Assembly: GCF_016616235.1 (NCBI RefSeq)
Contig: NZ_CP067100.1
Coordinates: 1,175,001-1,239,000, forward strand
Source of the DNA: Bradyrhizobium diazoefficiens
GTDB taxonomy: Bacteria > Pseudomonadota > Alphaproteobacteria > Rhizobiales > Xanthobacteraceae
Direction: 5' to 3'
DNA length: 64,000 nt
The notes below the pieces were generated by a model, which did no database searches, was not told where the DNA came from, and saw only the letters and a program-made list of their open reading frames with translations. The translations under genes were made by a program, and so were the position numbers. Shown in pieces: positions 39,539-52,600 of this stretch (its first letter is position 1; the number at the start of each line of letters is the position of its first letter).

Positions 39539-40135
39539 ATGACCTTCACGCTGCCCCCACTCCCCTACGCCTATGACGCCCTTGGCCAGTACATGTCGAA
39601 GGAGACGCTGGAATATCATCACGACAAGCATCATCAGGCCTACGTCACCAACGGCAACAACGCGCTCAAGGGGACCGAATGGGAAGGCAAGTCCCTTGAG
39701 GAGATCGTCAAGGGCTCGTTCGGCAAGAACCCCGCGGTGTTCAACAATGCCGGCCAGCACTACAACCACATCCACTTCTGGAGCTGGATGAAGCCCAATG
39801 GCGGCGGCACCAAGCTGCCGGGCAAGCTCGAGAAGAAGATCAACGAGGACCTCGGCGGCTTCGAGAAGTTCAAGACCGACTTCCAGGCGGCCGGCGTCGG
39901 CCAGTTCGGCTCCGGCTGGTGCTGGCTCCAGGTCAAGAACGGCAAGCTCGAGATCTCCAAGACCCCAAACGGCGAGAATCCGCTGGTGCATGGCGCCACC
40001 CCGATCCTCGGCTGCGACGTCTGGGAGCACTCCTACTACATCGACTATCGCAACCGCCGTCCGGACTATCTGAAGGCGTTCGTCGAGAACCTCGTGAACT
40101 GGGAATACGTCGAGTCCCTGTTCGAGAAGGCCTGA
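39539..40135 (+). CDS. sodB: Superoxide dismutase, Fe/Mn type
   Basis: The 198-residue enzyme converts superoxide to peroxide and oxygen. The four metal ligands are visible: His in LEYHHDKHHQAYV, His in NAGQHYNHIHFW, and Asp and His in ILGCDVWEHSYYIDY. The AAGVGQFGSGWCWL segment and glutamine in NNAGQHYNH fit the iron class, but metal choice cannot be fixed from sequence alone. No signal peptide, so cytosolic. A perfect EcfG promoter precedes it and a terminator hairpin follows. Confidence 0.95.
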   Translation: MTFTLPPLPYAYDALGQYMSKETLEYHHDKHHQAYVTNGNNALKGTEWEGKSLEEIVKGSFGKNPAVFNNAGQHYNHIHFWSWMKPNGGGTKLPGKLEKKINEDLGGFEKFKTDFQAAGVGQFGSGWCWLQVKNGKLEISKTPNGENPLVHGATPILGCDVWEHSYYIDYRNRRPDYLKAFVENLVNWEYVESLFEKA

Positions 40136-40183
40136 ATCGTTACACATTCCGGGTTCGGCTTCGTCGCCGAGCGATGAATCGAA

Positions 40184-40209
40184 AAGGCGGCTGCTCAAGC
40201 GGCCGCCTT
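40184..40209 (+). terminator. Rho-independent-type hairpin after sodB
   Basis: AAGGCGGC (40184-40191) pairs with GCCGCCTT (40202-40209) and is followed by a pyrimidine-rich CTGCTGT. It lies about 48 bp past the sodB stop. Confidence 0.7.
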
Positions 40210-40256
40210 CTGCTGTGCGGAATTCACCGCTCCCCCGGGACGTGGACAAGCGTAAT

Positions 40257-40269
40257 GTTATAATATAAC
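40257..40269. promoter_or_regulatory. Zur box overlapping a TATAAT -10 element
   Basis: GTTATAATATAAC is a perfect 6-1-6 inverted repeat, preceded by AT, and equals the core of the zinc-uptake-regulator consensus (TGTTATAnTATAACA). TATAAT at 40259-40264 lies inside it, so Zur-Zn would block RNA polymerase. The first gene of the zinc operon starts only 10 bp further on. Confidence 0.85.
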
Positions 40270-40278
40270 GTCTGCGGC

Positions 40279-40497
40279 ATGGTTCCCGCCGCGTCCCCCG
40301 CCCATGAGCACGACCATACCCAAGGCCATTCGCACGGGCACGACCACACCCATGCCCATGTCCATGACGCGGCCTCGCCACATCCGGCCCAGGACGCGCC
40401 CTGGTCGATCCTGCGCATGACCATGGCCGCGCGCCTTGCGGCTGCTGCGGCCGTCTGCGCCGTGCTCTGGGCCATGGTCTTCCTGGCGATGAGGTGA
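40279..40497 (+). CDS. Small His-rich single-pass membrane protein of the zinc operon
   Basis: The 72-residue protein has an N-terminal half packed with eleven histidines (HEHDHTQGHSHGHDHTHAHV, then HD and a later HP) and a C-terminal hydrophobic helix (about 52-71, AARLAAAAAVCAVLWAMVFL). Arg residues flank the helix on its N-side, so the His-rich part should face the cytosol, as in tail-anchored proteins. First gene behind the Zur box; its TGA overlaps the possible GTG start of the ATPase gene. I infer a zinc buffer or donor at the importer. I know of no characterised homologue. Confidence 0.75.
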   Translation: MVPAASPAHEHDHTQGHSHGHDHTHAHVHDAASPHPAQDAPWSILRMTMAARLAAAAAVCAVLWAMVFLAMR

Positions 40498-40499
40498 CC

Positions 40500-41255
40500 A
40501 TGGCCGCGCTGCATTTTCACAACGTCACGCTCGGTTATGACCGCCATCCGGCCGTGCACCATCTCAACGGCGAGGTCGCATCCGGTGCACTGGTCGCTGT
40601 GATCGGGCCGAACGGCGCCGGCAAGTCGACGCTGCTGCGCGGCATCGTCGGCATCCTCAGGCCGCTGGACGGCAGCATCCATCTCGGCGGGCTCGATAGC
40701 CGCGACATCGCCTATCTGCCGCAGAGCGCGGAGATCGACCGCAGCTTTCCGATCTCGGTGTTCGATTTCGTCGGCACTGGGCTGTGGCGCGAGGCCGGCC
40801 TGTTCGGCGGCATCGGCAAGGCCGCGCGCGAAAAGATCCTCCGGGCGATTGCGTCCGTGGGCCTCAGCGGCTTCGAGAATCGTCCGATCGGCACGCTCTC
40901 GGGCGGGCAGATGCAGCGCGTGCTGTTCGCACGCGTGCTGCTCCAGGATGCGCGCCTGATCGTGCTCGACGAGCCCTTCAACGCCATCGACAGCAAGACC
41001 ATTGCCGATCTGCTCGCATTGGTAAGGCGCTGGCACGCCGAAGGCCGAACCGTGCTCGCCGCCCTGCACGACATGGAGATGGTGCGCAACCATTTCAGCG
41101 AGACTTTGGTGCTGGCGCGCGGCCCCGTGGCGTGGGGACCGACGGTGGAGGTGCTGACGCCGGAAAATCTGATGGTCGCGATGCGGATGTGCGAAGCGTT
41201 TGACGACAGCGCGGCGGCCTGCGCGGCCGATGACGCCAGCTCGCGGGCGGCTTGA
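40500..41255 (+). CDS. Zinc ABC transporter, ATP-binding protein (ZnuC/AztA-like)
   Basis: The 251-residue ATPase has Walker A in VIGPNGAGKSTLLRGIVG, the signature LSGGQMQRVLFARVLLQ, Walker B with LIVLDEPFNAID, and the switch His in LAALHDMEMVR. Its C-terminus carries a Cys (DDSAAACAADD) not usual in ZnuC. The ATG at 40500 was taken; a GTG at 40494 overlaps the preceding stop. It powers zinc import through the permease encoded 6 bp downstream. Confidence 0.92.
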   Translation: MAALHFHNVTLGYDRHPAVHHLNGEVASGALVAVIGPNGAGKSTLLRGIVGILRPLDGSIHLGGLDSRDIAYLPQSAEIDRSFPISVFDFVGTGLWREAGLFGGIGKAAREKILRAIASVGLSGFENRPIGTLSGGQMQRVLFARVLLQDARLIVLDEPFNAIDSKTIADLLALVRRWHAEGRTVLAALHDMEMVRNHFSETLVLARGPVAWGPTVEVLTPENLMVAMRMCEAFDDSAAACAADDASSRAA

Positions 41256-41261
41256 TATCCG

Positions 41262-42131
41262 ATGATCTATGACGCGTTGATCGGTCCGTTCACCGAATTC
41301 GAGTTCATGCGGCGCGCGCTCGCCGCCGTCATCGCGCTGGCGCTGGCCGGCGCGCCGATTGGCGTGTTCCTGATGCTGCGGCGGATGAGCCTCGTCGGCG
41401 ACGCCATGGCGCACGCGATCCTGCCCGGCGCCGCGGTGGGATTCCTGCTCTCGGGTCTCAACCTGTTCGCGATGACCGCCGGCGGCCTGATCGCCGGCTT
41501 TGCCGTTGCGATTCTTGCCGGCGTGGTCGCGCGCTCGACCGGGCTGAAGGAGGACGCCTCGCTCGCGACCTTCTATCTGGCCTCGCTGGCGCTCGGCGTC
41601 ACCATCGTCTCGATCAAGGGTACCAATGTCGACCTGCTCCACGTGCTGTTCGGCAACATCCTCGCGATGGACGACCAGACCTTGCTGGTGGTCGCCTTCA
41701 ATGCCACCGTAACGCTGCTGGTGCTCGCGGTGATCTATCGGCCGCTGGTGATCGAGAGCGTCGATCCCTTGTTTTTGCGGACCGTGAGCCGAGCGGGAGG
41801 ACCTGCGCATCTTGCCTTCCTCGCGCTGGTCGTGATCAACCTCGTCAATGGCTTTCAGGCGCTCGGAACGCTGCTCGCGGTGGGATTGATGATCCTCCCG
41901 GCCGGCATCGCGCGGTTCTGGTCGCGCGATCTGACGGTGATGATCTGCATCGCGGTCGTTGCCGCCGCCGTCTCGGGTTATGCCGGGCTGGTGCTGTCGT
42001 TCCAGACCCGCGTGCCGTCGGGCCCTGCGATCATCCTGGTCGCGACGGTGCTCTACATCGTCTCGGTGCTGTTCGGCCGTGTCGGCGGCGTCGTCAGGCA
42101 GCTGTTTCCCGGCCGGCATCTGGAAGCGTGA
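41262..42131 (+). CDS. Zinc ABC transporter, permease (ZnuB/AztB-like)
   Basis: The 289-residue membrane protein has eight or nine predicted helices. It shows the ABC-3 family features: MSLVGDAMAHAILPGAAVGF near residue 45, the coupling region with EDASLATFYLASLALGVTIV, and GFQALGTLLAVGLMILPAGIARF. The family moves zinc or manganese; the Zur box and GTPase context support zinc. Its end overlaps the binding-protein gene by 4 bp (ATGA-type). Confidence 0.92.
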   Translation: MIYDALIGPFTEFEFMRRALAAVIALALAGAPIGVFLMLRRMSLVGDAMAHAILPGAAVGFLLSGLNLFAMTAGGLIAGFAVAILAGVVARSTGLKEDASLATFYLASLALGVTIVSIKGTNVDLLHVLFGNILAMDDQTLLVVAFNATVTLLVLAVIYRPLVIESVDPLFLRTVSRAGGPAHLAFLALVVINLVNGFQALGTLLAVGLMILPAGIARFWSRDLTVMICIAVVAAAVSGYAGLVLSFQTRVPSGPAIILVATVLYIVSVLFGRVGGVVRQLFPGRHLEA

Positions 42132-42997
42132 CGATGCGCTTCCTTCTGCTCTCCGTCCTTCTGCTGATCGCTTCACCGCTGCATGCCGCCGAGCGGCTCA
42201 ACGTCGTCGCGAGTTTCTCCATCCTCGCCGATTTCGTCCGCAATGTCGGCGGTGACCGCATCGATCTGACCACGCTGGTCGGCGCCGACGGCGACGTCCA
42301 CGTCTACACGCCGGCGCCAGGCGATGCGAAGCGGATCGCGGCGGCGAAGCTCGTCATCGTCAACGGGCTCGGGCTCGAAGGCTGGCTGCCGCGTCTGGTG
42401 CAGTCTGCAGGCAGCAAGGCGCAGGTAGTCACCGTCAGCGACGGCATCGCGCCGCTGAAGCTCGGTTCGGCGGCCGATCCGCACGCCTGGCAGTCGGTCC
42501 CGAACGCAAAGATCTATGTGACTGACATCGCCAATGCGCTGGCCGCAGCGGACCCCGATAACGCCGAGTTCTTCCGCGACCACGCCAAGGCCTATCTGGA
42601 ACAGCTCGAAGCCCTCGACCGCGAGGTCCGCGAGGCCATTGGAAAAATCCCGCCCGAGCGGCGCAGGGTGATCTCGACCCACAACGCTTTCGGCTATTTT
42701 GCTGCCGAATACGGCGTCCAGTTCATCGCGCCCGTGGGCGTCTCCACCGAAACCGAGCCCAGCGCGCGGGACATCGCCGCGATCATCGGCCAGATCCGGG
42801 CCGCGAGGATCCCGGCCGTGTTCCTGGAAAATATCAGCGATGACCGGCTGATCCGGCGGATCGCGGCGGAGACCGGGGCAAGGGTCGGCGGGACCCTGAT
42901 TTCGGACGGTTTGACCGGCGAAAAGGGGCCCGCACCCACTTACATTGACATGGTCAGGCACAATATAAAGGCCCTGACCAGCGCGCTTGACCATTAG
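42128..42997 (+). CDS. Zinc ABC transporter, periplasmic binding protein (cluster A-I, AztC/ZnuA-like)
   Basis: The 289-residue protein begins with a signal peptide (MRFLLLSVLLLIASPLHAAE). Three candidate metal-binding histidines lie in DVHVYTPAPGD, ADPHAWQSV and VISTHNAFGYFAAEYG, and the usual fourth ligand, Asp, in LISDGL near the C-terminus. The His-rich loop of classical ZnuA is absent, which is the AztC pattern; in Paracoccus such loop-less proteins get zinc from a separate chaperone, AztD. No AztD-like secreted protein is seen here. Transport partner of the two preceding genes. Confidence 0.92.
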   Translation: MTMRFLLLSVLLLIASPLHAAERLNVVASFSILADFVRNVGGDRIDLTTLVGADGDVHVYTPAPGDAKRIAAAKLVIVNGLGLEGWLPRLVQSAGSKAQVVTVSDGIAPLKLGSAADPHAWQSVPNAKIYVTDIANALAAADPDNAEFFRDHAKAYLEQLEALDREVREAIGKIPPERRRVISTHNAFGYFAAEYGVQFIAPVGVSTETEPSARDIAAIIGQIRAARIPAVFLENISDDRLIRRIAAETGARVGGTLISDGLTGEKGPAPTYIDMVRHNIKALTSALDH

Positions 42998-43049
42998 GGC
43001 AGGGGCCACCCCGCCTCGCGTCGCGCGACCAGCCCGACCCGGAGTAGTT

Positions 43050-44105
43050 ATGTCTGAAGCGACCTCCCCAAAAATTCCCGTGACCGTCCTGACCGGCTAC
43101 CTCGGTGCCGGCAAGACCACGCTGCTCAACCGCATCCTGTCGGAAAACCACGGCAAGAAATACGCCGTCATCGTCAACGAATTCGGCGAGATCGGCATCG
43201 ACAACGACCTCATCATCGGCGCCGATGAGGAAGTGTTCGAGATGAACAACGGCTGCATCTGTTGCACCGTACGCGGCGACCTCGTCCGCATCATGGACGG
43301 ATTGATGAAGCGCAAGGGCAAGTTCGACGCCATCATCGTCGAGACCACCGGCCTTGCCGATCCGGCGCCGGTGGCGCAGACCTTCTTCGTCGACGAGGAC
43401 GTGCAGAAGAATGCGCGGCTCGACGCGGTGGTGACGGTTGCCGACGCCAAATGGCTGTCCGACCGGCTCAAGGATGCGCCCGAAGCCAAGAACCAGATCG
43501 CCTTTGCCGATGTCATCGTGCTGAACAAGACCGATCTCGTCACCAAGGGAGAGCTTGCCGAGGTCGAGGCGCGCATCCGCGGCATCAATCCCTATGCTAA
43601 GCTGCATCGCACCGAGCGCTGCTCGGTGGCGCTGGCCGACGTGCTCGACCGCGGCGCGTTCGACCTCGATCGCATCCTCGACATCGAGCCGGACTTCCTC
43701 GAAGCCGGCGATGATCATGACCACGATCATCACCACGATCACGACCATCATCACCACCATGATCACGGCCAAGGTCATGGTCATGGCCTGAAGCACTATC
43801 ACGACGAGGACATGCAGTCGCTCTCGCTCAAGACCGACAAGCCGCTCGATCCCAACGTGTTCATGCCCTGGCTGCAGAACCTGGTGCAGGTCGAGGGCGG
43901 CAAGATCCTGCGCTCCAAGGGCATTCTCGCCTTCCACGATGACGACGACCGCTATGTGTTCCAGGGCGTCCACATGATGCTGGAGGGCAACCACCAGCGG
44001 AAGTGGAAGGACGGCGAGCCGCGCGAGAGCCGCCTCGTCTTCATCGGCCGCGAATTGCCGGAAAAGGCCATTCGCGAGGGTTTTGAGAGCTGCATCGTCT
44101 CGTGA
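43050..44105 (+). CDS. COG0523/CobW-type GTPase, probable zinc metallochaperone (ZNG1-like)
   Basis: The 351-residue protein has the P-loop GYLGAGKTT at 16-24, the metal-binding CxCC motif as G-C-I-C-C (C69, C71, C72), the switch ETTGLADPAP and the guanine motif VLNKTD. A His-rich loop (about 212-245, with runs such as DHDHHHDHDHHHHHDHGQGH) sits before the CobW C-terminal domain, which ends near GFESCIVS. Zur-controlled members of this family deliver zinc to client enzymes when zinc is scarce. The last codon overlaps the WD40 gene start (TGATG). Confidence 0.93.
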   Translation: MSEATSPKIPVTVLTGYLGAGKTTLLNRILSENHGKKYAVIVNEFGEIGIDNDLIIGADEEVFEMNNGCICCTVRGDLVRIMDGLMKRKGKFDAIIVETTGLADPAPVAQTFFVDEDVQKNARLDAVVTVADAKWLSDRLKDAPEAKNQIAFADVIVLNKTDLVTKGELAEVEARIRGINPYAKLHRTERCSVALADVLDRGAFDLDRILDIEPDFLEAGDDHDHDHHHDHDHHHHHDHGQGHGHGLKHYHDEDMQSLSLKTDKPLDPNVFMPWLQNLVQVEGGKILRSKGILAFHDDDDRYVFQGVHMMLEGNHQRKWKDGEPRESRLVFIGRELPEKAIREGFESCIVS

Positions 44106-45124
44106 TGAAAGAGTTTACGCCGGCGCCAGAGTCCGCCTCGATCGTCTCCGTCACCGACCGCGTCAAGCCTGTTACGCTCAGCATGGGCGTGACCTCGGTG
44201 CATTTCCTGGCCGACCGCGCCGCATTCGTCGGCGGCGAGGAGAATGTCGCGTTCGTCGATAGCCAAGGCGAAATCACCACCGTCGCCGTGCACAGCGGCG
44301 GCATTCTCTCCACCGCCTCCGACGGCAAGCGCCTCGTCATGGGTGGCGACGACGGCAAGGTCGTGTCGCTCGATGCCAAGGGCGAGGTGACGCTGCTTGC
44401 GACCGACCCGAAGCGGCGCTGGATCGACGCGGTGGCGTTGCACGCCGACGGAGCCTTCGCCTGGTCGGCTGGTAAGACCGCGACGGTCAAGAGCGGCAAG
44501 GCCGAGGAGAAATCGCTCGATGTGCCCTCAACCGTCGGCGGCCTCGCCTTCGCGCCGAAGGGCCTGCGGCTTGCGATCGCCCATTACAATGGCGCGACGC
44601 TGTGGTTTCCGAATATGGAAGGCTCGGCCGAATTCCTGCCCTGGGCCGGCTCGCATCTCGGCGTCACCTTCAGCCCTGACAACAAATTCCTGGTCACCTC
44701 GATGCACGAGGCAGCCCTGCACGGCTGGCGGCTCGCCGACAACAAGCATATGCGCATGACCGGCTATCCCGGCCGGGTCCGCTCGATGTCCTGGAGCGCG
44801 GGCGGCAAGGGGCTGGCGACCTCGGGCGCCGACACCGTCATCGTCTGGCCATTCGGCAGCAAGGACGGCCCAATGGGCAAGGAGCCCGCGATGCTCGCGC
44901 CGCTGCAGGCGCGGGTGTCTGTCGTCGCATGCCATCCCAAGAACGACATTCTCGCCGCCGGCTACAGCGACGGCACCGTGCTGATGGTGCGACTGGAGGA
45001 CGGCGCCGAGATCCTGGTGCGCCGCAACGGCACCCCGCCCGTCTCCGCGCTCGCCTGGAACGCCAAGGGCACGCTGCTGGCCTTCGCTGATGAAAATGGG
45101 GATGGCGGCCTGCTGGAGCTTTAA
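44105..45124 (+). CDS. WD40-like beta-propeller protein of the zinc operon
   Basis: The 339-residue protein is built of weak WD40 repeats of about 40 residues, for example VTSVHFLADRAAFVGGEENV, LGVTFSPDNKFLVTSMHEAA and VRSMSWSAGGKGLATSGADT, enough for a seven-bladed propeller. It has no signal peptide and few His or Cys residues (some in AVHSGG, HADGAF, SHLG, MHEAALHG). It overlaps the GTPase gene by one base, so the two products are probably made in fixed ratio and may interact. The only propeller known in related zinc operons, AztD, is periplasmic; this one appears cytosolic. Confidence 0.85.
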   Translation: MKEFTPAPESASIVSVTDRVKPVTLSMGVTSVHFLADRAAFVGGEENVAFVDSQGEITTVAVHSGGILSTASDGKRLVMGGDDGKVVSLDAKGEVTLLATDPKRRWIDAVALHADGAFAWSAGKTATVKSGKAEEKSLDVPSTVGGLAFAPKGLRLAIAHYNGATLWFPNMEGSAEFLPWAGSHLGVTFSPDNKFLVTSMHEAALHGWRLADNKHMRMTGYPGRVRSMSWSAGGKGLATSGADTVIVWPFGSKDGPMGKEPAMLAPLQARVSVVACHPKNDILAAGYSDGTVLMVRLEDGAEILVRRNGTPPVSALAWNAKGTLLAFADENGDGGLLEL

Positions 45125-45154
45125 TCTGTCATCGTTCCGACCGTATAGGGGGCC

Positions 45155-45871
45155 ATGCGGTTTCTGACCACATTCCAGCTTGCCGACTTCGCGGACACGC
45201 TGATCAGCCTGCTCACGGCTTTCGTGCTGGGCACGCTGATCGGCGCCGAGCGGCAGTACCGGCAGCGCACCGCCGGCCTGCGCACCAACGTGCTGGTCGC
45301 GGTCGGCGCCGCTGCCTTTGTCGATCTCGCCATGCACCTGACCGGCGCTGACGGAGCGGTGCGGGTGATCTCCTACGTCGTCTCCGGCATCGGCTTCTTA
45401 GGGGCCGGCGTCATCATGAAGCAGGGTATGGACGTGCGCGGACTCAACACCGCGGCGACGCTGTGGGCCTCGGCCGCGGTCGGCTCCTGCGCAGGCGCCG
45501 ACATGGTCGCGCAGGCCGTTGCCCTGACCGTGTTCGTTATCGCCGGCAACACGCTGCTGCGTCCGCTGGTCAACGCCATCAACCGCGTCCCGCTGAACGA
45601 GAAGGCGTCGGAAGCGACCTACTATTTCAAGCTTGCGGTCGCCCCCGACGCCTTGCCCGACATGCGCGACCGTCTTGTCGACAAGCTCGAGGCCGCGCAA
45701 TATCTGGTGGCCGATGTCGAGGTCGCCGAGATCGGCGAGGACAATCTGGAAATCGTCGCAAAGCTGGTCGCAAGCGCGGTCGACCCGAACGAGCTCAACG
45801 CGGTGGCGACCGATCTCCAGCACCTCCCGGGCGTGCGCCACGCGACCTGGGAAGTCAGCACGACGGAGTGA
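45155..45871 (+). CDS. MgtC/SapB family membrane protein
   Basis: The 238-residue protein has an N-terminal MgtC domain with four or five helices, including the family motif TLIGAERQYRQRTAGLRTNV and the block GIGFLGAGVIMKQGMDVRGL NTAATLWAS split over helices 3 and 4, followed by a cytosolic ACT-like domain of about 80 residues. MgtC proteins inhibit F-type ATPase or affect magnesium homeostasis in low-magnesium conditions. It begins 30 bp after the WD40 gene with a G-rich ribosome site, so it may be part of the zinc operon. Why is unclear. Confidence 0.87.
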   Translation: MRFLTTFQLADFADTLISLLTAFVLGTLIGAERQYRQRTAGLRTNVLVAVGAAAFVDLAMHLTGADGAVRVISYVVSGIGFLGAGVIMKQGMDVRGLNTAATLWASAAVGSCAGADMVAQAVALTVFVIAGNTLLRPLVNAINRVPLNEKASEATYYFKLAVAPDALPDMRDRLVDKLEAAQYLVADVEVAEIGEDNLEIVAKLVASAVDPNELNAVATDLQHLPGVRHATWEVSTTE

Positions 45872-46383: not shown

Positions 46384-47991
46384 CTAACGCACCGGGTCGT
46401 TCGGCAAGAGCGCCGCAAACGCCTGATCGAGCGCGGTATCGGCCTTCGCGAGCTTGTCGCGCTGGGCGGCAAGCCAGAGCTTGTCGGCATCTAGGCGCTG
46501 CTGAGCCAGCTTGAGCATGCGTGCAGTCTCCTCCGGCTGCGGACCGCCGACCCCCTTGGTGTGCGCCACGATCCATTCCGGTGACATCACCTCCCTGAAT
46601 TCGGCCTCGCTCATCGGGAAGGGCCTCGCCGGCATGTTGAATTTGGCAAGCGTCTTGGCGAAGAGGTCAGTCACTTCGCTGAACGGTATGGTCTTGGGCG
46701 TGAGATCCAGCGGCCGCGCATAGCTGACCATCTGTGAAGCGAAGCCATGCCCGACGCGGAACGGGATCTGGTGCGCCTGCAACAGTAGCTCGGCGAGGTT
46801 CATTGTCGAGGTCCAGTCGCTCTCCAGCTCTTCCTTGGCACGGGCCTTGTTGACCACGATCGCATCGAACACCCGGTCGGTCGCGGTGACCATCTTGATG
46901 GCACGCGGGAACAGGCCGATATCCTCGGACTGGGCCTTGGAATCGACCATGCCCGACGTGACGTTGTGAGCGCGGATCGATACCGCCCCCGACAGCCCCA
47001 CCACATCTGAAGCTGCAATCCTCGCCTGCATGATCAGACCCGGATTGCGCTTCTGTGGCATCGAGCTGCTGGTGTAGGTCGAGCCCTCCTGCAGCAAAAG
47101 CCACGGTCTCACCTCGGCGTATTGCGTATGCAGGTCCTGCATCATCACGCCGATGCGGATGGCGGCCGAATTGGCGATCGCGGTGGCCTCGAGCTGGTTG
47201 TCGAATGGGATCACCTGGTTGGCGTCCATCGAATTCTCGACGATGCCGTCAAAGCCGAGCAGTTGGGCGAGACGCGTGCGGTTCAGCGGCCAGATCGAGT
47301 CGGACATGACGCCAACGCCCATCGGGCTGAGGTTGAGTCGGCGATAGGCCTCGCTGATGCGCTGCTGGTCGCGTTCGAACGATTCCTCATAGGCCAGCAG
47401 GTAGTGACCATAGGTGATTGGTACCGCCTGCACGCCGTTGGTGTAGCCTGGCATCAATGCATCGAGATTGTCGGCCGCCTTGGCGAGCAGTTTGCCGCGC
47501 AAGCCGAGCAACGCTTCGGCAAAATCCAGCGTCTGGTTGCGTAATTTGGCAGCGCGATAGGTCGCGTACATGTCCTGACGGCTGCGCCCGGCGTGGATGA
47601 CGGAGGCCTCCTCGCCGACCTTGTCGGTCATGATCTTCTCGATCTGAAGGACGTCGCTCGGGCGCTTGCCGTCGGGCTCACGCGCCTGGCGGATCGTGTA
47701 GTCCACGCCCCCGGCGATCAACTGGCCGGTATTTTTCGGGAAGATGCCTTCCTCCACCAGCGTCACGGTGGAGGCCTTGTTGATCTTGTTGAGCCAGTAG
47801 AACTGGTCCTCTGCTGCGTCCGAATTGCTGGTCGATGGCTGCGCGGCGCTCGGGGCGTTGGCGCCGATCTTGGCGGCGTTTTCGTTGCATTCCTGCGTGG
47901 TCTTGCAGGGCAACTGACCGGTGTCCGCGGCCAAGGCGTGGGACGCGATCAGGAGGCTGACGCCTCCCGCGATGCAGGCGATATGATTCAT
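46384..47991 (-). CDS. Secreted argininosuccinate lyase-like protein of the fumarase/aspartase superfamily
   Basis: The 535-residue protein starts with a signal peptide (MNHIACIAGGVSLLIASHAL, cleavage near ALAADT), unusual for this cytosolic enzyme family. The body has the lyase signatures VIHAGRSRQDMYATYR (compare HTGRSRNDQ in argininosuccinate lyase) and EGSTYTSSSMPQKRNPGL (superfamily GSSxMPxKxNP, catalytic Ser loop). At the third conserved site, GYTHLQ of argininosuccinate lyase reads GYTNGVQ here, replacing the catalytic-region His with Asn. Cysteines in LPCKTTQEC may pair. It probably acts in the periplasm on a different amino-succinate or is not a lyase. Polyamine genes lie upstream in the same direction. 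Confidence 0.85.
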   Translation of the reverse strand: MNHIACIAGGVSLLIASHALAADTGQLPCKTTQECNENAAKIGANAPSAAQPSTSNSDAAEDQFYWLNKINKASTVTLVEEGIFPKNTGQLIAGGVDYTIRQAREPDGKRPSDVLQIEKIMTDKVGEEASVIHAGRSRQDMYATYRAAKLRNQTLDFAEALLGLRGKLLAKAADNLDALMPGYTNGVQAVPITYGHYLLAYEESFERDQQRISEAYRRLNLSPMGVGVMSDSIWPLNRTRLAQLLGFDGIVENSMDANQVIPFDNQLEATAIANSAAIRIGVMMQDLHTQYAEVRPWLLLQEGSTYTSSSMPQKRNPGLIMQARIAASDVVGLSGAVSIRAHNVTSGMVDSKAQSEDIGLFPRAIKMVTATDRVFDAIVVNKARAKEELESDWTSTMNLAELLLQAHQIPFRVGHGFASQMVSYARPLDLTPKTIPFSEVTDLFAKTLAKFNMPARPFPMSEAEFREVMSPEWIVAHTKGVGGPQPEETARMLKLAQQRLDADKLWLAAQRDKLAKADTALDQAFAALLPNDPVR

Positions 47992-48091: not shown

Positions 48092-49534
48092 TCAGCGCAC
48101 CAGAATGTTCTTGAACTGCCAGGGATCGCTGGTGTCGATGTCCTCCGGGAACAGTCCGGGACGATCCGTCAGCGGCGTCCAGTCGGTATAAAAGCCCTTC
48201 ACCGGGCCGAGATAGGGCAGCTGGATTTCCAGCAGGCGATCGAAATCCATTTCGTCGGCTTCGACGATGCCTTCGTTCGGGTTTTCCAGCGCCCACACCA
48301 TGCCGCCGAGCACGGCGGAGGTCACCTGCAGGCCGGTGGCGTTCTGATAGGGCGCAAGCTTGCGGGTCTCTTCGATCGAGAGCTGCGAGCCGTACCAATA
48401 GGCGTTGTTGTCGTGGCCGAACAGCAGCACGCCGAGCTCGTCGATGCCGTCGACGATCTCGTTCTCGTCGAGGATGTGGTGCTTCTCCTGCATCTTCCCG
48501 GCGCGGCCGAACATTTCATGCAGCGACAGCACGGCATCGTCGGCCGGATGATAGGCGTAGTGGCAGGTCGGCCGGTAAACCGCCTTGCCCGATGCGTCGC
48601 GCACCGTGAAGTAGTCGGAGATCGAGATCGACTCGTTGTGGGTGACGAGGAAGCCATATTGCGCGCCGCGGGTCGGGCACCAGGTGCGCACGCGCGTGTT
48701 GGCGCCGGGCTGCATCAGATAGATGGCAGCGCCGCACCCGGCTTCGTGGGTCCGCGCATTCTCCGGCATCCATTTTTCATGGGTGCCCCAGCCGAGCTCC
48801 GACGGCTGAACGCCCTCGGACAGGAAACCTTCCACCGACCAGGTGTTGACGAAGACATCAGGCTCCTTCGGCGTCTTGGAGCGCTGGGTGTCGCGTTCGG
48901 CGATGTGGATGCCCTTGATGCCGGCCTGCCGCATAAGGTCCGCCCATTCGGCCTTGGTCTTCGGCCGGGGTGCATTGAGCTTGAGGTCGGCGGCAACATT
49001 GAGCAGCGCCTGCTTGACGAAGAAGGAGACCATGCCGGGGTTGGCGCCGCAGCAGGAGACGGCCGTGGTCGAGCCCGGAGGGCGCGCCCGCTTGGCGGCC
49101 AGCGTCACCTCGCGTAGCGCGTAGTTGGAGCGCGCTTCCGGACCCTTGGATTTGTCGAAGTAGAAGCCGAGCCAGGGCTCGTTGACGGTGTCGATGTAGA
49201 GCGCGCCGAGCTCGTTGCAGAGCTCCATGATGTCGGTCGAGCCGGTGTCGACCGAGAGATTGACGCAAAAGCCCTGGCCACCGCCTTCGGTCAGCAGCGG
49301 CGTCAGCAGCTCGCGATAATTATCCCTGGTCACGCCCTTCTGGATGAAGCGCACATTGTGCTTCTCGCAATGGGCCTTGCGACCCTCGTCCTTGGGATCG
49401 ATCACGGTGATGCGCGACTTGTCGTAATCGAGATGCCGCTCGATCATCGGCAAGGTGCCTTTGCCGATGGAGCCGAAGCCGACCATGACGATGGGACCGG
49501 TGATCTTCGCGTAGATCTGCGAGGGAGGGCTCAT
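48092..49534 (-). CDS. hss: Homospermidine synthase
   Basis: This 480-residue NAD-dependent enzyme makes sym-homospermidine from two putrescines, or from putrescine and spermidine. The Rossmann motif is PIVMVGFGSIGKGTLPMIER near the N-terminus. Long stretches such as VNTWSVEGFLSEGVQPSELG, THEKWMPENARTHEAGCG and RPTCHYAYHPADDAVLSLHE are typical of bacterial Hss. It lies two genes downstream of ornithine decarboxylase, which supplies putrescine. Homospermidine is a main polyamine of rhizobia. Confidence 0.96.
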   Translation of the reverse strand: MSPPSQIYAKITGPIVMVGFGSIGKGTLPMIERHLDYDKSRITVIDPKDEGRKAHCEKHNVRFIQKGVTRDNYRELLTPLLTEGGGQGFCVNLSVDTGSTDIMELCNELGALYIDTVNEPWLGFYFDKSKGPEARSNYALREVTLAAKRARPPGSTTAVSCCGANPGMVSFFVKQALLNVAADLKLNAPRPKTKAEWADLMRQAGIKGIHIAERDTQRSKTPKEPDVFVNTWSVEGFLSEGVQPSELGWGTHEKWMPENARTHEAGCGAAIYLMQPGANTRVRTWCPTRGAQYGFLVTHNESISISDYFTVRDASGKAVYRPTCHYAYHPADDAVLSLHEMFGRAGKMQEKHHILDENEIVDGIDELGVLLFGHDNNAYWYGSQLSIEETRKLAPYQNATGLQVTSAVLGGMVWALENPNEGIVEADEMDFDRLLEIQLPYLGPVKGFYTDWTPLTDRPGLFPEDIDTSDPWQFKNILVR

Positions 49535-50845: not shown

Positions 50846-51988
50846 TTAGATATGGTACGTCTTGAGCGGCGGGATGCCGTTGAACGCCACCGCCGAGTAG
50901 GTCGACGTATAGGCCCCGGTGCCTTCGATCAGCAGCTTGTCGCCGATCTCCAGCGTGACCGGAAGCGGATACGGGTTCTTCTCGTACAGCACGTCGGCGC
51001 TGTCGCAGGTCGGACCTGCGAGCACGCACGGGGTCATGTCTGCGCCGTCATGGGGGGTGCGGATGGCGTAGCGGATCGACTCGTCCATGGTCTCGGCGAG
51101 ACCGCCGAACTTGCCGATGTCCAGGTACACCCAGCGCACCTCGTCCTCGTCGCTCTTCTTCGAGATGAGCACGACCTCGGATTCGATGATGCCAGCGTTG
51201 CCCACCATGCCGCGGCCCGGCTCGATGATGGTCTCCGGAATCTGGTTGCCGAAGTGCTTGCGCAGCGCGCGGAAGATCGAGCGGCCGTAGGTCACGACCG
51301 GCGGCACGTCCTTCAGGTACTTGGTCGGGAAACCGCCGCCCATGTTGACCATGGACAGGTTGATGCCGCGCTCGGCGCAGTCGCGGAACACCTGCGAGGC
51401 CATCGCCAGCGCGCGGTCCCACGCCTTCACCTTGCGTTGCTGCGAGCCGACATGGAAGGAGATGCCGCACGGCTCCAGCCCGAGGCGCCTGGCGACGTCG
51501 AGCACCTCGACCGCCATCTCCGGGTCGCAGCCGAACTTGCGCGACAGCGGCCATTCGGCGCCGGCGCAATCATAGAGGATACGGCAGAACACCTTGGCGC
51601 CGGGAGCGGCACGGGCGACCTTCTCGACCTCGGCGGTGCAGTCGACCGCGAACAGGCGGATGCCGAGCGCGAAGGCGCGCGCGATGTCGCGCTCCTTCTT
51701 GATCGTGTTGCCGAAGGAGATGCGATCGGGCGTCGCTCCTGCGGCCAGCGCCATCTCGATCTCGGCGACCGTCGCGGTGTCGAAGCAGGAGCCCATCGAG
51801 GCCAGCAGGGACAACACTTCCGGCGCCGGATTGGCCTTGACGGCATAGAACACGCGGCTATCGGGCAGCGCCTTGGCGAAGCTCTGGTAATTGTCGCGCA
51901 CGACCTCGAGGTCGACGACGAGGCACGGCTCGGTGTCCCGGCCCTCGCTGCGGCGGTTGCGCAGGAATTCCTGAATACGTTCGGTCAT
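50846..51988 (-). CDS. Ornithine/lysine decarboxylase, fold type III PLP enzyme
   Basis: The 380-residue enzyme converts ornithine to putrescine. The PLP lysine is K51 in the motif F-Y-A-V-K-A-N-P-A-P. The phosphate-binding glycine loop appears as VNMGGGFPTKY, and the active-site Cys/Asp contributed across the dimer lies in LAGPTCDSADVLYEK. It belongs to the eukaryotic-like ornithine decarboxylase group common in alphaproteobacteria. It heads the polyamine gene set and is preceded by a long structured leader of the kind (speF motif) described for this gene in this class. Confidence 0.95.
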   Translation of the reverse strand: MTERIQEFLRNRRSEGRDTEPCLVVDLEVVRDNYQSFAKALPDSRVFYAVKANPAPEVLSLLASMGSCFDTATVAEIEMALAAGATPDRISFGNTIKKERDIARAFALGIRLFAVDCTAEVEKVARAAPGAKVFCRILYDCAGAEWPLSRKFGCDPEMAVEVLDVARRLGLEPCGISFHVGSQQRKVKAWDRALAMASQVFRDCAERGINLSMVNMGGGFPTKYLKDVPPVVTYGRSIFRALRKHFGNQIPETIIEPGRGMVGNAGIIESEVVLISKKSDEDEVRWVYLDIGKFGGLAETMDESIRYAIRTPHDGADMTPCVLAGPTCDSADVLYEKNPYPLPVTLEIGDKLLIEGTGAYTSTYSAVAFNGIPPLKTYHI

Positions 51989-52600
51989 AGCACTCTCCCA
52001 AACGGCCCAGCGACGGGGATCCGTTCAAAAAATTGCGTCGGATATGAGCACCCCGGCCGGATCGCGCGATGGAGGCGCGACGAAGCCACGAGACTCAAAC
52101 CAGACTGTGCTGCCGTGGATTGGTTGGGAATTTCCCGCCCGCACACCTGGCAATGAAGGACAAGCCTTTTCAGTAGCCCGCGCCGGCGTTGGACTGCCGG
52201 TAGAGACCAAAAAAGCCCGATCCGTCGTTGCTTTAAGTCGCGTCCCCCGTTGAGAGCGGGGTGCGCCGGTTCGCCTCCGGCTGCCAGTCACGGTTGCAAG
52301 AAGTGAAGTCACCTTCGACAAGGCACCTCTTGAGAGAGATGCTGGACGCTCCGGGTTTGCCTTCAGTCTTCCGGCGATGAGCCTTCCGACTTCCGCACTT
52401 CCGAAGAGCCCCTCGGCTTCTTCACCCCTTGGCGGCTGTCCGGCCTCTTGTCCGGATACCTACCGACTGACACACGACCACAGGCACGTGCGAAATTGGG
52501 CAAGAACGCACATAAGGGTTTTGAATCGCGATCGCAAGAATTTTTTTAGGCTGCGGACAGAATTGCCTAACATCCGCTTGCGCGGTGTTGCGCGAGCGAC
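51989..52600 (-). ncRNA. Long structured 5' leader of ornithine decarboxylase, candidate speF motif RNA
   Basis: About 600 bp before the decarboxylase hold no credible gene but many inverted repeats on the minus strand: TCCGGACAAGAGGCCGGA, GCCGGAGGCGAACCGGC, the GAAGTGCGGAAGTC / GGCTTCTTC region, and CCGCTCTCAACGGGGG followed 30 bp later by GGATCGGGCTTTTTTGG, which looks like a terminator or anti-terminator. The speF RNA motif is known upstream of ornithine decarboxylase genes in alphaproteobacteria. Assignment is by position and structure; I cannot check the covariance model. A 98-codon frame inside it (52321-52025, TTG start) looks non-coding. Confidence 0.5.

Follow-up and report, generated by a model that had tools for sequence, protein, structure and literature searches.

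The window analyzed here is a stretch of 64,000 nucleotides from Bradyrhizobium diazoefficiens (assembly GCF_016616235.1, contig NZ_CP067100.1, positions 1,175,001 to 1,239,000 of the forward strand), whose genome is a single contig of 7.67 Mb. Positions 40279-45124 of the window are a zinc operon encoding a small peptide, an AztABC-like importer, a COG0523 GTPase and a WD40 protein, and across genomes the WD40 protein goes with the GTPase rather than with the importer. A working partnership between the GTPase and the WD40 protein is very likely because the two co-occur almost perfectly, also where their genes are unlinked, and the emphasis therefore moves from the importer to the GTPase. We consider it somewhat more probable than the alternatives taken together that the WD40 protein serves the zinc GTPase as an adaptor in the cytosol, within a zinc-scarcity operon of the Zur type.

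To determine co-occurrence, the same whole genomes were searched with the GTPase and with the WD40 protein, in order, class and phylum samples that overlap. In the order sample (n = 150), 49 genomes had both proteins, two had the GTPase only, none had the WD40 protein only and 99 had neither (phi 0.97). The corresponding numbers in the class sample (n = 142) were 18, 0, 1 and 123 (phi 0.97), and the single WD40-only genome (G125) was a weak, distant match that was counted in the class table and left out of the union. The phylum sample (n = 249), for which at most eight best candidates were scored per genome, gave 35 genomes with both, one with the GTPase only, none with the WD40 protein only and 213 with neither. 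Over the union of the samples, the WD40 protein was found in 82 of the 84 genomes having this GTPase. GTPase orthologues were delimited at 340 bits, a cut set after seeing the gap in the scores (341 versus 276 bits in the class sample and 341 versus 248 bits in the order sample). Four weak WD40 matches of the order sample were not counted (G179, G215, G281 and G145, the last split in two and containing a stop), and the GTPase of G145 (244.5 bits) was also left out. As a control, the co-occurrence of the GTPase with aztB of the same operon gave a phi of 0.32 in the order and 0.38 in the class sample.

Genomes that keep the pair with its genes unlinked add weight to the co-occurrence values. The GTPase and WD40 genes were located far apart on one contig, at 45 kb, 396 kb, 1.3 Mb, 2.2 Mb and 2.4 Mb, in G451, G409, G257, G205 and G160, respectively, and on different contigs, where contig breaks are possible, in nine further genomes (G070, G287, G241, G272, G128, G417, G431, G413 and G407). 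The four genomes of family f158 carried the GTPase gene behind aztABC and the WD40 gene elsewhere.

Where the genes are linked, the linkage is close. A sequence-only reading of this DNA had described the WD40 protein as tightly coupled to the zinc GTPase, which the results support, and had pointed to other alphaproteobacteria as a place to look for the pair. The GTPase stop and the WD40 start overlapped by four bases (ATGA) in the window and in all but one of the 80 close loci, which were the best 80 of 238 WD40 loci in named genomes (titles: 78 Bradyrhizobium, one Bradyrhizobiaceae and one 'Frankia sp. RB7') and whose WD40 proteins were 90-95% identical to that of the window. In other genera, represented by 59 WD40-bearing regions from 58 genomes, the GTPase gene was found at most 700 nt upstream of the WD40 gene on the same strand in 45/59 regions and 0.9-1.9 kb upstream in four more. 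These adjacency counts were obtained by tblastn; neighbor clusters were built from open reading frames (ORFs) picked by a codon-position score, since picking by length was unsuited to these G+C-rich regions, where antisense ORFs won.

The GTPase carried both CobW domains above their cut-offs (PF02492, 203.4 bits; PF07683, 95.7 bits). The motifs GxxGxGKT (Walker A, G16-T23), CxCC (C69-x-C71-C72) and NKxD (N159-K160-x-D162) were conserved across 79 aligned sequences, that of the window among them, and residues 206-300 contained a median of 17 histidines (range 3-32) among 117 extracted homologues, duplicates included. Zinc as the substrate and the GTPase function are predicted from these families. 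The start was taken as the ATG at 43050, where the mechanical ORF call had placed a TTG at 42987.

The WD40 protein is predicted to be cytosolic, and its lack of a signal peptide, as proposed earlier, was confirmed by a non-hydrophobic N-terminus: the best 12-residue mean within the first 40 residues was 1.38, compared with 2.88 for the AztC-like protein of the same operon. A best mean above 2.0 was found in only 4 of 115 extracted WD40 homologues versus 24 of 28 AztC homologues. The best AlphaFold2 model was an eight-bladed propeller with a predicted local distance difference test score (pLDDT) of 83.5 and a predicted template modeling score (pTM) of 0.86, Pfam reported propeller families only (E 0.01), structural matches also backed this fold, and the protein contained a single cysteine.

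A 15-base palindrome, TGTTATAATATAACG, ended 8 bases 5' of the first start codon of the operon. The exact sequence TGTTATANNATAAC occurred once in the whole genome, as this box at 40256-40270, and 100 shuffles of the window gave no match to it with up to two mismatches. With 0-2 mismatches the box was located upstream of aztA in 77 of the 77 close loci having enough upstream sequence. Outside the genus, such a site (at most three mismatches, at most 900 bases upstream of aztA) was present in 13 of the 17 close azt loci of other genera (L176, L190 and L199, with a weak aztA match, were left out of the 17), against a background at this stringency of 28 sites over the whole 1.03 Mb and 12 in one mononucleotide shuffle. 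The palindrome resembles Caulobacter Zur sites from promoters shifted by Zur, as described in the available part of PMC4176598, and a Zur motif was reported for the aztA promoter of Paracoccus (PMC5387054, available part). The genome has three FUR-family genes, and a sigma-70 scan gave no promoter at the box region. On this sequence evidence, the operon is very probably a zinc-scarcity operon under Zur control. In addition, all four f158 genomes (L200-L203) had a Zur-box-like site inside the 3' end of aztB, with only L202 also having one upstream of aztA; the internal site could be chance conservation of coding sequence.

In the mechanism that we propose, zinc would enter through the AztABC-like importer, with the one-helix His-rich peptide accompanying the importer on the membrane. 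The COG0523 GTPase, with its His-rich loop and CxCC metal site, would take cytosolic zinc and deliver it to clients in a GTP-dependent cycle. The WD40 propeller would be the regular partner of the GTPase, either docking clients to it or regulating its cycle, and would not be a zinc carrier of the AztD kind. The docking of clients, like the role and the topology of the peptide, is a conjectural part of this scheme. The earlier proposal that the WD40 protein serves as a scaffold or client receptor is reasonable.

Several observations weigh against this reading. Physical binding of the GTPase to the WD40 protein is something that we infer, and the phi and Fisher values ignore shared ancestry. Two genomes (G183 and G170) had the GTPase without the WD40 protein and with no WD40 remnant near the GTPase gene, and three genomes with the genus label of G183 had both proteins; therefore, the WD40 protein is not strictly required. 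Eight phylum genomes encoded a GTPase of 45-49% identity (307-324 bits) with no WD40 match at E 1e-20, and GTPase-only genomes in the phylum sample would be 9/44 if these were counted. The five structure models of the WD40 protein were uneven in confidence (pLDDT 83.5, 65.4, 54.0, 46.4 and 45.0). In 11/59 regions of other genera, azt genes lay up to about 5 kb upstream of the pair in the same orientation, sometimes with another gene between, and in two they were nearby on the other strand. Where no azt operon was close, the box (at most two mismatches) was seen upstream of the GTPase gene only at loci L188 and L206. The pair is thus mostly away from the importer and without a nearby Zur box; its function reaches past this type of operon and may extend beyond zinc scarcity. 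As a separate observation, the GTPase gene of G170 (locus L199) was located near znuABC-like matches and two more COG0523 matches.

A more far-reaching idea, which we regard as tentative and rather less probable than the adaptor reading, is that zinc is inserted by a machine of two parts, the GTPase and a WD40 propeller that selects the clients. This machine would exist without regard to any importer, and in zinc operons it would be fed by an as yet unannotated one-helix microprotein, often His-rich, located on the cytosolic side next to AztB-type permeases. If true, it would be a bacterial parallel of WD40-guided metal-cofactor targeting.

Among the rival explanations, the one that survives best, while still unlikely, is that the WD40 protein is a main client (receiver) of the GTPase or a downstream effector within the pathway they share, with no lasting complex and no adaptor function. 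It predicts the same co-occurrence, and conserved residues of the WD40 protein could join a metal site: among 80 aligned sequences, His185, His207 and His278 were retained in 95-99%, and Glu or Asp occupied position 203 throughout. However, His185, Glu203 and Trp209 are what we take to be structural tetrad positions of an ordinary WD40 blade, and His278-Pro is presumably a usual variant, which leaves only His207 unexplained. A three-His zinc site on the propeller is therefore conceivable but unsupported, and the exclusively propeller-type Pfam assignment also speaks against a client or effector.

It is less probable again that the two genes are neighbors only, kept together by descent and operon structure and doing no joint work. 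The surroundings of the pair are partly shared, since two further genes of the window, 48092-49534 and 50846-51988, had relatives in 9/59 and 7/59 GTPase-WD40 regions of other genera, respectively, which is probably old synteny. However, the co-occurrence holds where the GTPase and WD40 genes are far apart, and aztB of the same operon co-occurs with the GTPase far less.

The sequence-only reading had connected the propeller with AztD by way of the binding protein. AztA, AztB and AztC were the top NCBIfam matches of the three importer genes, each below its equivalog cut-off. Aligned to 5w56, the AztC-like protein lacked 16 loop residues, and the short flexible three-His loop of AztC was not present in it. 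Among 28 extracted AztC-like proteins, the loop pattern was readable in 21 (seven were unreadable, and two rows were the same genome); loop histidines were absent from the six of the window's genus, numbered 2-8 in 13 of the 15 others and were absent from the remaining two. The binding protein had been called the loop-less AztC type that works with AztD. The absence of the loop stands, but the combination is a mismatch, because Paracoccus AztC needs its short flexible loop for zinc transfer from AztD and this loop is missing here.

AztD itself, in the available part of PMC6689063, is an eight-bladed propeller with a signal sequence, the site-2 zinc ligands H99, H102 and D104 and a conserved disulfide, and its homologues are often near CobW-type genes. 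The AztD model NF038015 had no match in the genome of the window at E 0.001 and exceeded its cut-off in 0 of 142 class genomes, with three weak matches of 19-23 bits elsewhere. The WD40 protein had no HGxHxD-like (site-2-like) motif. AztD was not named among the 60 of 98 PDB sequence matches listed for it, which counts against kinship. It was also missing from the 50 Foldseek/VIA-align fold matches listed; the two fold lists, being limited, carry no weight either way. Thus, of the cytosolic AztD counterpart suggested earlier, the cytosolic location was retained and the kinship to AztD was not: a zinc-carrying propeller of this kind, which would account for the eight blades of both proteins (by prediction for the WD40 protein), their common tie to Azt-type importers and the CobW neighbors of AztD, is very improbable given the absent NF038015 match and site-2-like motif, the single cysteine, the missing AztC transfer loop and a gene that follows the GTPase rather than the importer. 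An AztD-like role was rejected on the sequence, the missing loop and the genome search.

The His-rich peptide at the head of the operon belongs, by its sequence features, to a one-helix microprotein whose gene is next to aztA in many Alphaproteobacteria. All 18 azt loci used to build a profile, own genome included, had alongside aztA a short ORF with a single hydrophobic helix at its end, an Arg ahead of the helix and a Trp close to the helix end; these ORFs were selected by the helix and the Trp, and the Arg played no part in the selection. They were His-rich, at a cut of 10%, in 14 of the 18. A motif regular expression missed 7/18 loci, and the profile was used instead. It was run on the 30 best of the 34 class-sample aztB loci, 29 of them with aztA, and for the 23 loci outside the profile set it matched at the start of aztA in 21 at E <=1 and in 14 at E <=0.001, with just two other places among 2002 ORFs. 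The one-helix microprotein seems to be a regular companion of AztB-type permeases, with a variable His-rich part. Basic residues by a membrane helix mark its cytosolic side (the positive-inside rule). Because the Arg precedes the helix, the His-rich end would face the cytosol, which suggests a cytosolic His-rich part. The window copy had no Pfam or NCBIfam match, and a limited literature search found no such one-helix protein, which is weak evidence for novelty. Directly before aztA, the microprotein was seen at 40279-40497 of the window and in L114, L116, L118, L120, L126, L157, L160, L161, L178, L184, L185, L189, L194 and L200-L203.

The choice of clients by COG0523 GTPases is a long-standing open question. 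The WD40 protein offers a concrete handle on these clients because it co-occurs with the GTPase in 82/84 genomes, even unlinked, and the recurrent microprotein beside aztA, unnamed by Pfam and NCBIfam, is a second testable piece. Some neighborhoods offer leads on clients. A creatininase-family cluster (PF02633, one member tested) was found in 5/59 regions of other genera, not always adjoining the pair, and no creatininase-family gene was seen beside the pair of the window. Creatininase-family proteins as clients are thus only a lead. In L112 (5715-9748), genes for the GTPase, a HAD hydrolase, the WD40 protein and an M20 peptidase followed one another on one strand, which may point to a metallopeptidase as a client.

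The features of the operon and its borders are given in Table 1. The operon genes named earlier were all present on the + strand, with six + strand genes located between the superoxide dismutase gene (39539-40135) and the MgtC gene (45155-45871). Their junctions were gaps or overlaps of a few bases, except for 52 bases ahead of the GTPase start.

Table 1. Coordinates of the zinc operon features and bordering elements in the window
Feature	Position	Strand	Basis
Zur-box-like palindrome TGTTATAATATAACG	40256..40270	+	Motif search, resemblance to Zur consensus
72-aa peptide, His-rich N-terminal part, one C-terminal hydrophobic helix	40279..40497	+	Sequence
ABC transporter ATPase, AztA-like	40494..41255	+	PF00005; NCBIfam AztA 215.4 bits, cut-off 220
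ABC-3 transporter permease, AztB-like	41262..42131	+	PF00950; NCBIfam AztB 254.5 bits, cut-off 280
Zinc-type ZnuA-family substrate-binding protein, AztC-like, without His loop	42128..42997	+	PF01297; NCBIfam AztC 302.2 bits, cut-off 350
COG0523 (CobW/G3E) GTPase, candidate zinc metallochaperone/insertase, 351 aa	43050..44105	+	PF02492, PF07683
His-rich loop within GTPase	43710..43811	+	Sequence
WD40 protein, 340 aa, predicted eight-bladed propeller, no signal peptide	44102..45124	+	PF00400
MgtC family protein	45155..45871	+	PF02308, PF21770
G+C-rich inverted repeat between superoxide dismutase gene and operon, possible terminator	40182..40211	.	Sequence

The hairpin of the inverted repeat matched CsrC below the gathering threshold (17.7 versus 61 bits, E 0.046) and was not reported by the terminator scan. 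The MgtC gene, which had been suggested as a possible extension of the operon, lies 30 nt 3' of the WD40 gene, and the same spacing was found in 52/80 close loci (at most 213 nt in 72/80). It was beside the WD40 gene in 0/59 regions of other genera and so is not a general member of the operon; MgtC is probably a neighbor in close relatives, outside the zinc module. Further downstream, the gene at 46384-47991 (-) encodes a PF00206 lyase-family protein whose N-terminus resembles a signal peptide by eye. A speF leader RNA (52044-52202, - strand; Rfam 55.3 bits) was located upstream of two genes, one of the Orn/Arg decarboxylase family (50846-51988, - strand) and one that is saccharopine-dehydrogenase-like (48092-49534, - strand) and presumably encodes homospermidine synthase.

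Compared with known systems, the operon is like AztABCD of Paracoccus denitrificans in that the best NCBIfam models of its importer are AztA, AztB and AztC, in its Zur motif and in having an eight-bladed propeller. In contrast to AztABCD, it has no AztD match, a loop-less AztC-like protein and a signal-less propeller tied to the GTPase. At E 0.001, a sequence comparison with the PDB gave the GTPase a single relative, YjiA of Escherichia coli; the GTPase differs from YjiA in scoring 225 on NCBIfam PRK11537, with a cut-off of 361, and in having a WD40 partner.

Eukaryotic ZNG1 transfers zinc to METAP1. Unlike the GTPase of the window, ZNG1 is termed a eukaryote-specific subfamily in PMC10642216, from which the word WD40 is absent. 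Eukaryotic DUF34 (NIF3) metal-chaperone candidates are fused to the WD40 protein Ciao1/Cia1, as described in the available part of PMC8469502. This is a parallel in that a metal-insertion candidate is coupled to a WD40 protein, but it differs from the window pair in the protein family, in being a fusion instead of a gene pair and in its iron-sulfur link.

The pairing of a COG0523 GTPase with a WD40 protein is itself already known, though barely. According to the available part of Haas 2009 (PMC2770081), the genes clustered with prokaryotic COG0523 genes of subfamily 5 include WD40, znuABC and creatinase genes (creatinase being a different family name from creatininase), several of the clusters have predicted Zur sites, and most eukaryotic COG0523 proteins, human included, belong to the same subfamily. 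The available main text contains the word WD40 once, with no test of the link in its treatment. Within the COG0523/CobW/G3E literature available to us, the pairing was stated only there, and a 2021 COG0523 review may hold earlier discussion. The window operon is like this subfamily 5 in its WD40 and znuABC-type importer neighbors, a likeness of gene neighborhood. The co-occurrence of GTPase and WD40 protein, the genomes in which their genes are unlinked, the aztB control and the predicted fold of the propeller go beyond that account.

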